A stretch of DNA of 13,879 nt, taken from a methanogenic archaeon (GTDB taxonomy: Archaea > Thermoplasmatota > Thermoplasmata > Methanomassiliicoccales > Methanomethylophilaceae). This document shows positions 1 to 6,464 of this stretch, in pieces. The notes under the pieces were generated by a model. That model searched no databases. It saw only the letters and a list, made by a program, of their open reading frames with translations, and was not told where the DNA came from. The first letter of the stretch is position 1; the number at the start of each line of letters is the position of its first letter. The stretch covers positions 1 to 13,879 of the forward strand of contig CADAGG010000025.1 of the NCBI GenBank assembly GCA_902787415.1. Direction: 5' to 3'. A program made the translations under genes and the position numbers.

Positions 1-2405
<2,405 letters not shown>

Positions 2406-2550
2406 CTGGCGTATGATCTAGCACACGTCCAGGTTACGTATGATCGGTTGTCATCAGCCTTTTCCATAGCGGAGGCCTCGACCTCTTCCCCGGTAGAAAT
2501 TCTCTTTTCTCCGAGTGCATGTGTTAGAAGCTGGTTTATTACCGCCATCT
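2406..2550 (-). other. Predicted leader of the 23S rRNA precursor
   Basis: This stretch lies between the predicted transcription start (about 25 nt below the TATA box at 2576-2586) and the estimated mature 23S 5' end. It holds no 16S, tRNA or convincing protein gene. The 9-base word CGTATGATC (plus-strand reading) occurs twice, at 2410-2418 and 2437-2445. In archaea such leaders usually pair with the 23S trailer to form a processing stem. The trailer is off the window, so this cannot be tested here. Both boundaries are inferred. Confidence 0.55.
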
Positions 2551-2717: not shown

Positions 2718-3131
2718 TCACGGCATGAACAGCGTATAGACCAGATCGGGGATGAGTTTCTTCAGTTGGAACAGGTCCGGGTAGTACAATGACATCCTGT
2801 CCTCGCTGTGGACCCTCTTCCCGAGCATGCGTGCGACCACGGCCACCTCGGTCCTGCCGTCGATCCTCCATCCTCCGGATTCCGAGGAGGGATCGGTGGA
2901 GACGAAGATAGGGAGCTTCAGGGTCAGCTTCTCCTGCTCGGTGCAGATGCTCTCAAGATAATCTATGCCCTCCCTGCCGAAGGAACAGATATCCCCTCCC
3001 TTGGTCTCGTAGGTGTATCCCCCGTTGTCGATGTAGTCGATGAGGGAGCGCCTCTTCACGGGCACGTTGCTGTTCATATGGGCAAGCATGCGGGTGACGT
3101 CACGGGGGTCGTCCTCGATTCCGTAGGGCAT
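2718..3131 (-). CDS. DUF61 / UPF0216 family protein
   Basis: This is a 137-residue protein resembling the archaeal DUF61 (UPF0216) family, which has no established function. Family-like features are the N-terminal segment with NSNVPVKRRSL (about residues 21-31), the central LKLPIF motif near residue 73, a GGWRIDGRTEV block, a VVARMLGK segment, and a C-terminal LYYPDLFQLKKLIPD stretch. The length is normal for the family and no signal peptide or membrane segment is visible, so it is probably cytoplasmic. The ATG at 3131 is chosen because a TATA-like AT tract lies about 20-30 bp upstream, which implies an almost leaderless mRNA. The stop is TGA. It is co-oriented with the 23S gene and divergent from nifB. 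The family call rests on recalled motif patterns. Confidence 0.8.
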   Translation of the reverse strand: MPYGIEDDPRDVTRMLAHMNSNVPVKRRSLIDYIDNGGYTYETKGGDICSFGREGIDYLESICTEQEKLTLKLPIFVSTDPSSESGGWRIDGRTEVAVVARMLGKRVHSEDRMSLYYPDLFQLKKLIPDLVYTLFMP

Positions 3132-3205: not shown

Positions 3206-4450
3206 GTGGACGCAGAGAAGCAACTGAAGGACATGCTCGAGACCCATCCCTGTTACAACGAGGAGGCCCACAGGAAATATGCACGTATGCACGTGCCCGT
3301 GGCCCCCAAGTGCAACATCCAATGCAACTACTGCAACAGGAAATACGACTGCAGCAACGAATCGCGTCCCGGGGTTACCAGCGAGGTGCTCACCCCCGAG
3401 CAGGCCGTATCGAAGGTGGGTTACGTCCTGGAGAAGATCCCCAACCTCAAGGTGATAGGCATCGCAGGCCCCGGGGACCCGCTCGCCAACGAGGAGACTT
3501 TTACCACGCTGGCACTTCTCAAAGAAAGGTATCCGTCGCTCACCCCCTGCATTTCCACCAACGGTCTCGCCCTGCCCGCTTCGGCACAGAGGCTGTACGA
3601 CCTCGGAGTCAGATTCGTCACCGTCACCATCAACGCTCCCGACGCGGAGACCGGTTCCAGGATCTACGGATCGGTCCTCTGGGAAGGGAAGAGGTACAAG
3701 GGCACCGAAGGCGCGGAGATCCTCCTCCGCAACCAGCTGGAGGGCATCAGGAAATGCCATGAGCTGGGCATGCTCGTCAAGGCCAACATCGTCATGGTCC
3801 CGGAGATCAATGCCGCCTCCATACCCGAACTGGTCCGCAAGGTGAAGGATCTCGGTGCATACACCGTCAACATCCTCCCCCTCATCCCCGTACCCGGAAC
3901 GGTATTCGAGAACGTCCGCGGGCCCACCCCCGCCGAGAGGAAGGCCCTCATGGACGAGTGCTCCCTCGATGCCAGGATGATGAGGCACTGCAAACAGTGC
4001 CGTGCCGATGCCATCGGCCTCCTGGGAGAGGACCGCTCCGCGGAGTTCACCGGCTGCGGCCTCGGTAAGGGGGACGGATGCGGACCCACCGAGTCCTGGT
4101 CAAACCTCATAAAGATAGATACCGGCAGGAAGTTCACCGTGGCCGTCGCCAGCGAGGGCGGCAAGGAGGTCGATGCGGGATTCGGCAGCGCCGGCAGGTT
4201 CCTCGTCTACAGGGTGGACGGAGACGATGTTCAGATGCTCAGGGAGGTAAGACCCAGAGACATGGATTCCTCTACTGCGGGGCTACCCCACAGGGAGCAT
4301 ATCGAGGCCATCATCAACCTCCTCGACGACTGCGACGCCATCGTCGTGAAGGAGATCGGCGACATGCCGAGGTCCGCCATAGAGCACAGGAACAAGAAGG
4401 TCGTCGTCACCTCCGGTCCCGTCAGAAAGGCCGTCTCGGACCTCTCCTGA
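3206..4450 (+). CDS. nifB: NifB, radical SAM FeMo-cofactor synthase, with C-terminal NifX-like domain
   Basis: NifB uses SAM radical chemistry to fuse two [4Fe-4S] clusters and insert a carbide, giving NifB-co, the precursor of nitrogenase cofactors. The 414-residue protein has the radical SAM motif C36-x3-C40-x2-C43 inside the NifB-typical HVPVAPKCNIQCNYCNRKYD block, an AGPGDPLAN motif, the GKRYKGTEGAE block, and the NifB-specific CKQCRADAIGLLGEDR segment (C262, C265). From about residue 309 a NifX/NafY-like cofactor-binding domain follows. That fusion is common in bacterial NifB, while several methanogen NifB proteins lack it. The start is GTG, the only reasonable start in frame after the TGA at 3170-3172. 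No strong ribosome site is seen, and TTG or later starts are less likely because the N-terminal HPC block must be kept. No nifH, nifD, nifK or nifE is in the window, so a nitrogen-fixing role is not shown here. Confidence 0.95.
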   Translation: MDAEKQLKDMLETHPCYNEEAHRKYARMHVPVAPKCNIQCNYCNRKYDCSNESRPGVTSEVLTPEQAVSKVGYVLEKIPNLKVIGIAGPGDPLANEETFTTLALLKERYPSLTPCISTNGLALPASAQRLYDLGVRFVTVTINAPDAETGSRIYGSVLWEGKRYKGTEGAEILLRNQLEGIRKCHELGMLVKANIVMVPEINAASIPELVRKVKDLGAYTVNILPLIPVPGTVFENVRGPTPAERKALMDECSLDARMMRHCKQCRADAIGLLGEDRSAEFTGCGLGKGDGCGPTESWSNLIKIDTGRKFTVAVASEGGKEVDAGFGSAGRFLVYRVDGDDVQMLREVRPRDMDSSTAGLPHREHIEAIINLLDDCDAIVVKEIGDMPRSAIEHRNKKVVVTSGPVRKAVSDLS

Positions 4451-4480: not shown

Positions 4481-4505
4481 CCGAGGTTCATTGGAGAGCA
4501 TCACA

Positions 4506-6281
4506 ATGGAAGCTCAGGAACTCAGAGACGCATACGTCAACTTCTTCAAATCGAAAGGGCACGCGCACATCAAGTCCGCATCCCTCATCCCCGAGAACGA
4601 CCCCACCGTTCTGTTCACCACCGCCGGAATGCACCCCCTGGTGCCCTATCTGCTCGGCGAGAAGCACCCCGCCGGAACCAGGCTCACCGACTACCAGAAA
4701 TGCGTGAGGACCGGGGACATCGAGGACGTCGGAGACGCGAGCCACCTCACCTTCTTCGAGATGCTCGGCAACTGGTCCCTCGGCGACTACTTCAAGAAGG
4801 AGTCCATCGCCTGGAGCTTCGAGCTCCTCCGCGACGTGCTCCACCTCACCCCTGACCAGCTGGCGGTCACCGCCTTCGCCGGGGACGAGGACGCACCCAA
4901 GGACGAGGAGACCGCCCAGCTCTGGGAGGCCCAGGGAATCGCCAAGGACCACATCTTCTTCCTCCCCAAGGAGGACAACTGGTGGGGCCCCGCTGGACAG
5001 ACCGGGCCCTGCGGACCCGACACCGAGATCTTCTTCATCGACAAAACCAAGAAGCCCTGCGGACCCGAGTGCAGGCCCGGCTGCCACTGCGGCTACTACA
5101 CCGAGATCTGGAACAACGTCTTCATGCAGTACTTCAAGGACAAGGACGGCAAGTTCACCCCTCTGAAGCAGAAGAACGTCGACACCGGTATGGGCCTGGA
5201 GAGGGCGCTCCGCGTCCTCTGCGGCACCGAGACCGTCTACGAGACCCCTCTCTTCACCGGCATCATCGGCAAGATCGAGGAGCTCTCCGGCAAGAAGTAC
5301 GCCGACGACATGAAGGCATTCAGGGTCGTAGCAGACCACCTCAGGGCATCCACCTTCCTCATCGCCGACGGAGTCGTCCCCACCAAGATGGGAGCCGGTT
5401 ACATCCTCAGGCGTCTCATCAGGAGGGCCAGCAGGTACATGTCCTCCCTCGGCATCGAGGAGTCCGGACACATGAAGGACGTCGCCCAGGTCGTCATCGA
5501 CGAGTACTCCGGCGCATATCCCGAGCTCAAACAGAACGAGCAGACCATCCTCACCACCATCACCGAGGAGGAGGAGAAGTTCCACAAGAACCTCAGGAAG
5601 GGTATGAGGAGGTTCGAGGAGATGATCGCCAACAACGGCGACGCCAAGGTGCTCCCCGGAGACAAGGTCTTCCAGCTGTTCGACACCTTCGGATTCCCCA
5701 TCGAGCTCACCAAGGAACTGGCCGAGGAGCGCGGATTCCAGGTCGATGTGGACGACTTCAACGGCAGGTTCAAGCAGCACCAGGAGACCTCCAGGATGGA
5801 CACCAACCAGACCTTCAAGGGAGGACTGGCCGACCACAGCGAGGAGACCACCAAGCTCCACACCGCCACCCACCTCCTCAACGCTGCGCTCAGGACCCTC
5901 ATCGACCCCGACATCCGCCAGAAGGGAAGCAACATCACCCCCGAGAGGCTCAGGTTCGACTTCAACATCGACAGGAAACTTACCCCCGAGGAGCTCGCTT
6001 CCATCGAAAAGTACGTCAACGACGCCATCAAGGCCGACATCCCCGTGGTATGCGAGGAGATGACCCTCGAGGAGGCCCGCGCCAGGAACGCCATCGGTGT
6101 CTTCGACAGCAAGTACGGCGAGAAGGTCAAGGTCTACACCATGGGAGACGTCTCCTGCGAAATCTGCGGAGGCCCCCACGTGCAGCACACCGGCGAGCTC
6201 CAGGGATTCAAGATCCAGAAGCAGGAGAACGTCGCGGCCGGTGTCAAGCGTATCAAGGCCGTCGTCGGAAAGTTCGACTGA
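4506..6281 (+). CDS. alaS: Alanyl-tRNA synthetase, short bacterial-type form lacking the C-Ala domain
   Basis: It charges tRNA-Ala with alanine. At 591 residues it is well below the usual 850-950. The class II catalytic core is at the N terminus (TTAGMHPLVPYLLGE, then FFEMLGNWSLGDYFKKE), followed by a Cys-rich insert (CGPECRPGCHCG) before EIWNNVFMQYF, the NVDTGMGLER motif and the tRNA-binding helical region. The editing domain keeps its metal ligands: H452 and H456 (HTATH), and C554 and H558 (CGGPH). The protein ends about 30 residues later, so the DHHA1/C-Ala region is absent. It lacks the N-terminal zinc-like extension of typical archaeal AlaRS and resembles the short forms I recall from candidate-phyla bacteria, including PENDPTVLFTTAGMHPLVPY and ICGGPHV. 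ATG 4506 is preferred over TTG 4491 because GGAG lies 9 nt upstream of it. Bacterial origin by transfer is inferred. Its codon use looks like that of its neighbours. Confidence 0.95.
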   Translation: MEAQELRDAYVNFFKSKGHAHIKSASLIPENDPTVLFTTAGMHPLVPYLLGEKHPAGTRLTDYQKCVRTGDIEDVGDASHLTFFEMLGNWSLGDYFKKESIAWSFELLRDVLHLTPDQLAVTAFAGDEDAPKDEETAQLWEAQGIAKDHIFFLPKEDNWWGPAGQTGPCGPDTEIFFIDKTKKPCGPECRPGCHCGYYTEIWNNVFMQYFKDKDGKFTPLKQKNVDTGMGLERALRVLCGTETVYETPLFTGIIGKIEELSGKKYADDMKAFRVVADHLRASTFLIADGVVPTKMGAGYILRRLIRRASRYMSSLGIEESGHMKDVAQVVIDEYSGAYPELKQNEQTILTTITEEEEKFHKNLRKGMRRFEEMIANNGDAKVLPGDKVFQLFDTFGFPIELTKELAEERGFQVDVDDFNGRFKQHQETSRMDTNQTFKGGLADHSEETTKLHTATHLLNAALRTLIDPDIRQKGSNITPERLRFDFNIDRKLTPEELASIEKYVNDAIKADIPVVCEEMTLEEARARNAIGVFDSKYGEKVKVYTMGDVSCEICGGPHVQHTGELQGFKIQKQENVAAGVKRIKAVVGKFD

Positions 6282-6387: not shown

Positions 6388-6391
6388 TGAG

Positions 6392-6464
6392 TGGACTGGG
6401 CGCGATTTGAACGCGCGACTTCTTGCTTGCAAAGCAAGCGATCTTCCAGCTGATCTACCAGCCC
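6392..6464 (-). tRNA. tRNA-Ala (anticodon UGC)
   Basis: A complete 73-nt cloverleaf folds by hand. The acceptor is GGGCTGG with CCAGTCC, including the G3:U70 wobble pair that is the main identity element for alanine. The D stem is GATC/GATC with an 8-base loop, the anticodon stem CTTGC/GCAAG carries loop TTTGCAA (anticodon TGC), the variable region is AAGTC, and the T stem is GCGCG/CGCGC with loop TTCAAAT. The discriminator is A73. The 3' CCA is not encoded and must be added afterwards. There is no intron. The body looks like a normal archaeal tRNA-Ala, unlike the bacterial-type synthetase gene facing it. Confidence 0.97.

Follow-up and report, generated by a model that had tools for sequence, protein, structure and literature searches.

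The locus described here raises the question of whether an essential archaeal enzyme, alanyl-tRNA synthetase (AlaRS), has been replaced by a compact bacterial one, and how such an enzyme would charge and proofread tRNA-Ala. A first-pass annotation made from the sequence alone had suggested the replacement, on the condition that the gene be the only AlaRS of its genome. The window, by which we mean the whole stretch of 13,879 nucleotides that was analyzed, belongs to a metagenome-assembled genome of the Methanomethylophilaceae (G000; 166 contigs, 82.6% complete); among the matches listed, the two closest named contigs, which encode AlaRS 74 and 71% identical to that of the window, are from this family. 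Features of the window are listed in Table 1.

Table 1. Positions of the features discussed, numbered from the first nucleotide of the window
Feature	Position	Strand	Basis
DUF61 gene, second landmark of the conserved neighborhood	2718..3131	-	Pfam; neighborhoods of relatives
NifB-like radical SAM gene, directly upstream of AlaRS	3206..4450	+	NifB, 433 bits (curated cut-off, 344)
Compact alanyl-tRNA synthetase gene, 591 aa	4506..6281 (stop included)	+	Intact ORF; NF002436, 871 bits
Class II catalytic core, about residues 1-240	4506..5225	+	AlphaFold2 model; matches to solved AlaRS catalytic fragments
Helical domain for tRNA recognition, about residues 248-433	5247..5804	+	Alignment; AlphaFold2 model
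Lys294, aligned with the G3:U70-reading Asn (E. coli N303)	5385..5387	+	Alignment; role of Asn from available text of PMC10036535
Asp393, retained, aligned with the G3:U70-reading Asp (E. coli D400)	5682..5684	+	Alignment
Low-confidence hinge, residues 432-441	5799..5828	+	pLDDT <50; alignment deletion where full-length AlaRS has the beta-barrel with Gly-rich motif
Minimal AlaX-S-like editing core, about residues 446-591 (protein end)	5841..6278	+	tRNA_SAD match, residues 541-583; AlaX sequence and Foldseek matches
First editing metal motif, H452 and H456	5859..5873	+	Sequence; alignment
Second editing metal motif, C554 and H558 (CGGPH)	6165..6179	+	Sequence; alignment
tRNA-Ala (TGC) with G3:U70, C4:G69, and archaeal-type D-stem	6391..6464	-	Comparison with other archaeal tRNA-Ala examined

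Gene, domain architecture, and family assignment

The AlaRS gene starts with an ATG at 4506, in an open frame that opens earlier, with a TTG at 4491. Its product scored 871.2 bits against NF002436/PRK01584, a curated NCBIfam AlaRS model of 595 positions (curated cut-off, 529), residues 1 to 588 aligning with model positions 1 to 593. Because full-length bacterial AlaRS can also pass this cut-off (626 bits for Anaerocolumna; 6 of 14 control genomes), the assignment to the compact type draws on architecture and phylogeny as well: the score extends over the whole model, the beta-barrel and C-Ala are absent, an editing core is present, and the protein falls among compact enzymes in the trees described below. 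The archaeal model TIGR03683 gave 260.4 bits, below its curated cut-off of 744.7, and the alignment reveals neither the N-terminal extension nor the C-Ala by which archaeal AlaRS are recognized. TIGR00344, the bacterial full-length model, gave 634.7 bits (cut-off, 457), with a best stretch covering only positions 1 to 431 of 847.

Three deletions separate the compact enzymes from full-length AlaRS in the alignment: the archaeal N-terminal extension, C-Ala, and a beta-barrel block of about 100 residues. The first two had been called by the first-pass annotation, and both calls hold. Ahead of the column of E. coli residue 10 stands a median of 10 residues in the Methanomethylophilaceae rows versus 63 in 17 full-length archaeal rows; past the column of E. 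coli residue 690 there are 11 to 16 residues versus 169 to 193 in full-length archaeal enzymes, which leaves neither C-Ala nor anything else after the editing domain, and a Pfam scan found no C-terminal DHHA1 domain in the window AlaRS. The third deletion, which had gone unnoticed, removes the beta-barrel and its GGQ motif; the interval from the helical domain to the editing core is 33 to 34 residues long in the Methanomethylophilaceae rows versus 119 to 125 in the 17 archaeal and 139 to 146 in two bacterial full-length rows.

An AlphaFold2 model of the window AlaRS (mean pLDDT, 88.6; pTM, 0.72) places the catalytic core, helical domain, hinge, and editing core in that order. Foldseek matched it to solved AlaRS catalytic fragments and to Pyrococcus horikoshii AlaX (1wnu, target TM of 0.82; 1v7o; 1v4p), and residues 450 to 573 match 1v4p and 1v7o by sequence also. 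With the Gly-rich beta-barrel also gone, the editing module is similar to minimal AlaX-S in sequence and fold, the difference being that in the window enzyme it is fused to a synthetase through a short hinge. The four editing ligands had been correctly named as H452, H456, C554, and H558; all four are kept in 43/43 Methanomethylophilaceae rows (which probably count one genome twice, as L039 and L173, whose contigs are equally long at 35,034 nucleotides), in the compact enzyme of G041, a genome from another family of the order, in 77/77 other compact rows, and in 20/20 compact rows from DPANN archaea. The metal site of the HxxxH and CxxxH motifs is intact.

The enzyme is not of a new kind, its type being already named in the databases as NF002436/PRK01584, and some relatives' compact AlaRS bear the plain annotation “alanine--tRNA ligase.” It agrees with this family in length, domain order, lack of beta-barrel and C-Ala, the CGGPH motif, and the four metal ligands. 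Among the matches listed, the family's holders include Spirochaetes, Christensenellaceae-type Clostridia, Lentisphaerae, candidate-phyla bacteria, and others; the AlaRS of Borrelia and Treponema pallidum are about 600 residues long. What differs from the family at large is the host, a Methanomassiliicoccales archaeon in which compact AlaRS stands in for the native gene. With E. coli alaS (TIGR00344) the window AlaRS shares the catalytic core and helical domain, at about 40% identity, and the editing ligands, but it lacks the GGQ beta-barrel and C-Ala and has Lys in place of Asn at E. coli position 303. With archaeal AlaRS (TIGR03683; Archaeoglobus fulgidus, 3wqy) it would share the reaction and, in relatives, shares a gene neighbor, whereas identity is about 24% and the N-terminal extension, beta-barrel, and C-Ala are all wanting.

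Distribution, gene neighborhood, and origin

A genome search of G000 found one AlaRS catalytic domain, and a full-length archaeal-type AlaRS was found neither there (at 82.6% completeness) nor in six single-contig relatives; because G000 is incomplete, the argument against a second AlaRS leans on those relatives. In a survey of 61 Methanomassiliicoccales genomes, 37 from the Methanomethylophilaceae and 24 from other families of the order, the compact enzyme was the only AlaRS found in 33 of the 37, including the six single-contig genomes (99% completeness), while the remaining four (G020, G022, G026, and G035) carry a full-length archaeal AlaRS, the G022 copy being split over two contigs. The other 24 comprise one with the compact gene (G041), 21 with all or part of a full-length-type gene, and two, G050 and G055, with no AlaRS catalytic match. 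Both types together were seen in 0/61 genomes. A scan of 292 genomes of the phylum yielded 27 above the compact cut-off (26 Methanomethylophilaceae and G041), each with at least 863 bits; the next best match reached 122 bits, and eight genomes had no match at all.

Within the family of G041 (15 genomes), the compact gene occurs in G041 only, 10 genomes have all or part of a full-length-type gene, and an AlaX match is all that was found in G050, G357, G360, and G363. Three of these (G050, G357, and G360; 93 to 98% complete), all of one genus, encode AlaX-L with no AlaRS catalytic domain found; in other genomes of that genus AlaRS lies near contig starts, and the missing genes are probably assembly gaps.

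These counts bear on the possibility that the compact AlaRS is a secondary paralogue, or sits on a contaminant contig, while a full-length archaeal AlaRS does the work. The fragmented, incomplete state of G000 leaves room for it, as do two Bacillota genomes (G088 and G450) that hold compact and full-length AlaRS together and a DPANN genome (G576) in which a frame of 863 codons gives a match in addition to the compact gene; however, the six single-contig relatives are compact-only, the two types never coincide among the 61 genomes, and the contig is archaeal. It encodes, together with the compact AlaRS, an archaeal 23S rRNA (positions 1-2410, minus strand; 2157 bits; cut by the contig end), S10, EF-1A, and archaeal EF-2, the two elongation factors scoring above curated cut-offs. 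This explanation is largely refuted, and we consider it very improbable. Two small ORFs inside the 23S region (344-619 and 999-1226) are without Pfam match and are rRNA.

Among 35 genomes reached via compact loci, the compact gene was the sole AlaRS found in all but two, namely, G088 (Anaerocolumna), which adds an 883-codon frame, and G085, which adds a piece of 250 codons containing a stop; beside its compact AlaRS, G079 shows one more match, weak and N-terminal. The compact gene is not the rule in the phylum of G088, the Bacillota, since 2/119 genomes carry it (G088 and G450), each beside a full-length gene; one other, G424, had an AlaX match only. Coexistence of the two types was thus observed in Anaerocolumna aminovalerica (G088; L098 and L117) and in G450. 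In the DPANN phylum of the Woesearchaeota MAG G082, compact AlaRS is present in 73/193 genomes (74 genes, 12 of them read with an internal stop), and 20 of the 74 genes were taken into the DPANN alignment and tree (L350-L369). One of these genomes, G555, has two compact genes (G555:C1:267867 and 753601; L355 and L356), 57 and 41% identical to the window protein.

The NifB-like gene lies upstream of AlaRS in compact and full-length relatives alike. The full-length order is NifB-like radical SAM gene, acetolactate-synthase-like TPP enzyme, and AlaRS (G026, G020, and G044), with DUF61 beyond this array in G026 and G044, and rps13-rps4-rps11-rpoD (names from G044) follow full-length AlaRS in G037, G040, G044, and G048. 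Eleven compact Methanomethylophilaceae loci were compared: the NifB-like gene is directly upstream in five and separated by one or two ORFs in three, and G002, G029, and G018 are exceptions, G018 retaining DUF61 upstream. The compact gene of G041 stands ahead of rps13-rps4-rps11-rpoD, the position of the full-length gene in its relatives. Because the NifB-like side is kept in one case and the rps13-rpoD side in the other, two separate replacements in the same neighborhood are indicated, each with one old flank kept; from these single flanks we infer that the swap was literally in place.

An upstream neighbor common to compact and archaeal AlaRS genes would also be expected if the compact AlaRS were the archaeal enzyme, shortened by domain loss in the Methanomethylophilaceae lineage. 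Identity to the full-length AlaRS of Methanomethylophilaceae, however, is 24 to 25% over long alignments (32% over 159 residues for one G022 fragment), compared with 40 to 42% to two bacterial full-length AlaRS and about 57 to 61% to compact Clostridia AlaRS; the Pro of CGGPH is common to 77/77 other compact rows and to 0/17 full-length archaeal rows; and an AU test rejected the grouping of compact Methanomethylophilaceae AlaRS with archaeal AlaRS (P = 0.0097). Domain loss is refuted by these data and retains even less probability than a paralogue or contaminant.

Two AlaRS trees were computed, the first from 25/43 Methanomethylophilaceae, 54/77 other compact, and 9/17 full-length archaeal rows and the second from 10 Methanomethylophilaceae rows, G041, 28 other compact rows, and 8 archaeal and 8 bacterial full-length rows; the over-long starts of L056 and L096 were trimmed beforehand. 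With the root on archaeal AlaRS, the compact enzymes form a clade that is the sister group of bacterial full-length AlaRS (branch values, starred, of 99 and 98/98) and does not fall inside the archaeal enzymes. Within it the Methanomethylophilaceae form one clade (95, starred, and 94/94), next to which come G041 (95/81, starred) and, after it, Anaerocolumna, an Alphaproteobacteria MAG, and gut Clostridia; Anaerocolumna and the Alphaproteobacteria MAG, the bacteria that branch nearest, are represented by one row each (forks of 96/90 and 99/83). Grouping with the compact enzymes of Woesearchaeota and Thorarchaeota was also rejected (AU test, P = 0.0078). The first-pass annotation was therefore right about the compact bacterial class, on the evidence of NF002436 and the tree, but not about a likeness to candidate-phyla bacteria: among the best 80 loci, the closest bacteria are of gut Clostridia/Christensenellaceae type. 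The immediate source is probably to be sought among the compact enzymes of Clostridia-like gut bacteria. A quick tree, for which bacterial full-length AlaRS served as the root, places some DPANN enzymes, with long branches, at the deepest splits of the compact family, and the family may have originated near DPANN or candidate-phyla lineages; “bacterial-type” here describes the nearest relatives of the window gene, not the lineage in which compact AlaRS arose.

An EF-2 tree of 30 genomes, with reading frames picked by BLAST, unites the 18 compact-AlaRS Methanomethylophilaceae in one clade (100/100), leaves four full-length ones outside, and pairs G041 with the full-length G044 (100/100). These starred branches therefore imply two changes of enzyme type, one in the Methanomethylophilaceae and one in the family of G041.

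We hold with high confidence that the window gene is the cell's only AlaRS, that it is of the compact NF002436/PRK01584 type, and that this type replaced the archaeal AlaRS of about 900 residues once, in an ancestor of most Methanomethylophilaceae, near the same address, from a source among gut Clostridia-like compact enzymes, with charging and editing presumed to proceed as outlined below. Gene content, architecture, phylogeny, shared neighborhood, a residue change, and the presence of AlaX-L were all observed directly. The replacement envisaged at the outset is thereby borne out.

tRNA-Ala and the residues that read G3:U70

According to the available text of PMC10036535, an Asn of AlaRS (E. 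coli N303) contacts U70 and an Asp (D400) contacts G3. The Asn is replaced by Lys in 36 and by Arg in 7 of the 43 Methanomethylophilaceae rows, compared with Arg in 6 of 77 other compact rows, and the Asp is kept in 43/43. Both residues are intact in all 49 full-length rows (17/17 archaeal, 30/30 Bacillota, E. coli, and Anaerocolumna); in 11 further rows from the family of G041, Asn is visible in 9 and Asp in 10, the others being gaps of cut genes. Changes at the reader are not confined to one lineage. The compact AlaRS of G041 keeps Asn and has Thr for Asp; of the 75 bacterial compact rows, 6 have Arg for Asn, 18 have another residue for Asp, and 20 are changed at one or both positions; in the compact rows from Woesearchaeota and Thorarchaeota, Asn is retained and the Asp position holds Gln and Thr; and the 20 DPANN compact rows keep Asn throughout and replace Asp in 17. 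Not every such change speaks equally for a new mode of reading, because Asp to Glu, which accounts for 7 of the 18 bacterial replacements, is described as natural variation in the accessible part of PMC6451123.

G3:U70 itself is kept in every one of the 36 distinct tRNA-Ala genes compared (37 rows, with one gene of G028 entering twice; 34 from the order and two from elsewhere in the phylum). What is new is thus the change of Asn to Lys or Arg at the G3:U70 reader while the G3:U70 of tRNA-Ala is unchanged. Since G3:U70 and one D-stem motif, present in all 37 rows, are common to the archaeal tRNA-Ala examined, the tRNA was not brought along with the synthetase. Linkage of the two genes in Methanomethylophilaceae had suggested such a co-transfer, which was rejected: the D-stem is archaeal, the acceptor-stem pairs match those of full-length-AlaRS relatives and differ from bacterial tRNA-Ala, and several full-length genomes (e.g., G037, G059, and G026) also have both genes on the same contig, at a distance of about 13 to 20 kb. 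Four full-length-AlaRS genomes (G020, G026, G044, and G048) yielded a CGC tRNA-Ala, as did none of the compact Methanomethylophilaceae genomes with extracted hits.

One explanation of the basic residue is that it adapted an incoming enzyme to the archaeal C4:G69 pair, contacting U70 and G69 together. C4:G69 is present in 35 of the 36 distinct archaeal genes (G015 has U4:A69), and G4:C69 is present in E. coli and in the 7 compact-AlaRS genomes yielding a tRNA-Ala, from an E. coli alaV search of 28 genomes that gave a match in 16 and so covers position 4:69 for one of the six Arg-bearing bacterial rows. That one, the Treponema MAG G074, combines Arg with G4:C69, however, and Asn occurs with C4:G69 in G041 and in full-length archaeal enzymes. 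The adaptation was not supported when checked and seems unlikely.

A possible alternative, which we put forward tentatively and with rather more doubt than assurance, is that the Methanomethylophilaceae AlaRS reads G3:U70 with a new pair, Lys or Arg plus Asp, the basic residue donating to U70 and tightening the hold on the acceptor stem, which might let a synthetase lacking C-Ala suffice as the only one; more broadly, the reader may have been rebuilt repeatedly across compact lineages, with the tRNA signal fixed where looked at. A precedent is the Tupanvirus mini-AlaRS, which, in the same partial text of PMC10036535, has no intact Asn/Asp pair and no C-Ala and still demands G3:U70.

Editing in cis and in trans, precedents, and significance

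Each step of catalysis and tRNA binding proposed here is deduced from residues and predicted folds. Charging would use a standard catalytic core and a helical domain gripping the acceptor stem only, by analogy with another AlaRS without C-Ala for which this has been shown, and G3:U70 would be read by the retained Asp393 and by Lys294, in the place of Asn. Mischarged Ser-tRNA-Ala would be cleared in cis by the AlaX-S-like, metal-dependent core on its short flexible hinge, without beta-barrel or C-Ala, as the intact ligands and the fold suggest, and AlaX-L would provide a backup in trans.

A search for AlaX found a second PF01411 match in G000, an AlaX-L cut by the contig end, and an AlaX-type match in 59/61 genomes. 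Twelve complete AlaX-L of 389 to 433 residues were retrieved from compact- and full-length-AlaRS genomes, and all four that were scanned, two from each kind of genome, contain a DHHA1 (C-Ala-type) domain. AlaX-L can back up serine removal, and the assertion that this cell must edit without C-Ala stands in cis but fails in trans, given that AlaX-L is encoded and carries DHHA1 in complete relatives.

A split AlaRS might be envisaged, in which AlaX-L docks on the compact enzyme and supplies C-Ala function in trans, a contact with the tRNA elbow apart from charging. The DHHA1 domains just mentioned are compatible with such an arrangement, and the available text of PMC10036535 describes the Nanoarchaeum equitans AlaRS as functioning as two subunits. 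AlaX-L is no special partner of compact AlaRS, however, because it is equally common where AlaRS has its own C-Ala; many compact-AlaRS genomes are without a PF01411 AlaX match (a short AlaX-S would escape PF01411); and the Tupanvirus mini-AlaRS, in that text, charges acceptor-stem RNA efficiently with no C-Ala. Docking of this kind is doubtful. The viral enzyme also differs from the window AlaRS, as far as the text goes: it has no editing domain and is kin to the AlaRS of its amoeba host, whereas the window AlaRS has an editing core and is bacterial-type.

A third tRNA_SAD match in G000 is a threonyl-tRNA synthetase (G000:C9; L004:1150-2913), which scored 737 bits with TIGR00418 (cut-off, 384) versus 227 bits with PRK03991 (cut-off, 484). 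We take PRK03991 to be the archaeal form of ThrRS. By these scores the G000 ThrRS also looks bacterial-type, in line with the bacterial SerRS and ThrRS transfers into Methanomassiliicoccales reported in PMC4427996, the accessible portion of which leaves AlaRS unmentioned. No report of AlaRS replacement in this order was found in the open-licence PMC literature.

The replacement is real, extends over nearly the whole family, and involves a compact class of enzyme that was already known. AlaRS is said, in the available portions of PMC10036535 and PMC10485164, to keep a conserved four-domain prototype across its biology, and an archaeal family whose sole AlaRS lacks both C-Ala and the Gly-rich beta-barrel is at odds with that statement. 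Sister genera that retain the enzyme of about 900 residues, with similar tRNA-Ala genes, offer a natural before-and-after comparison, and with Asn changed to Lys or Arg throughout the 43 Methanomethylophilaceae rows, the best-known rule of tRNA identity becomes open to direct testing in a new setting. The Methanomethylophilaceae thus provide a clean model of synthetase displacement across domains.
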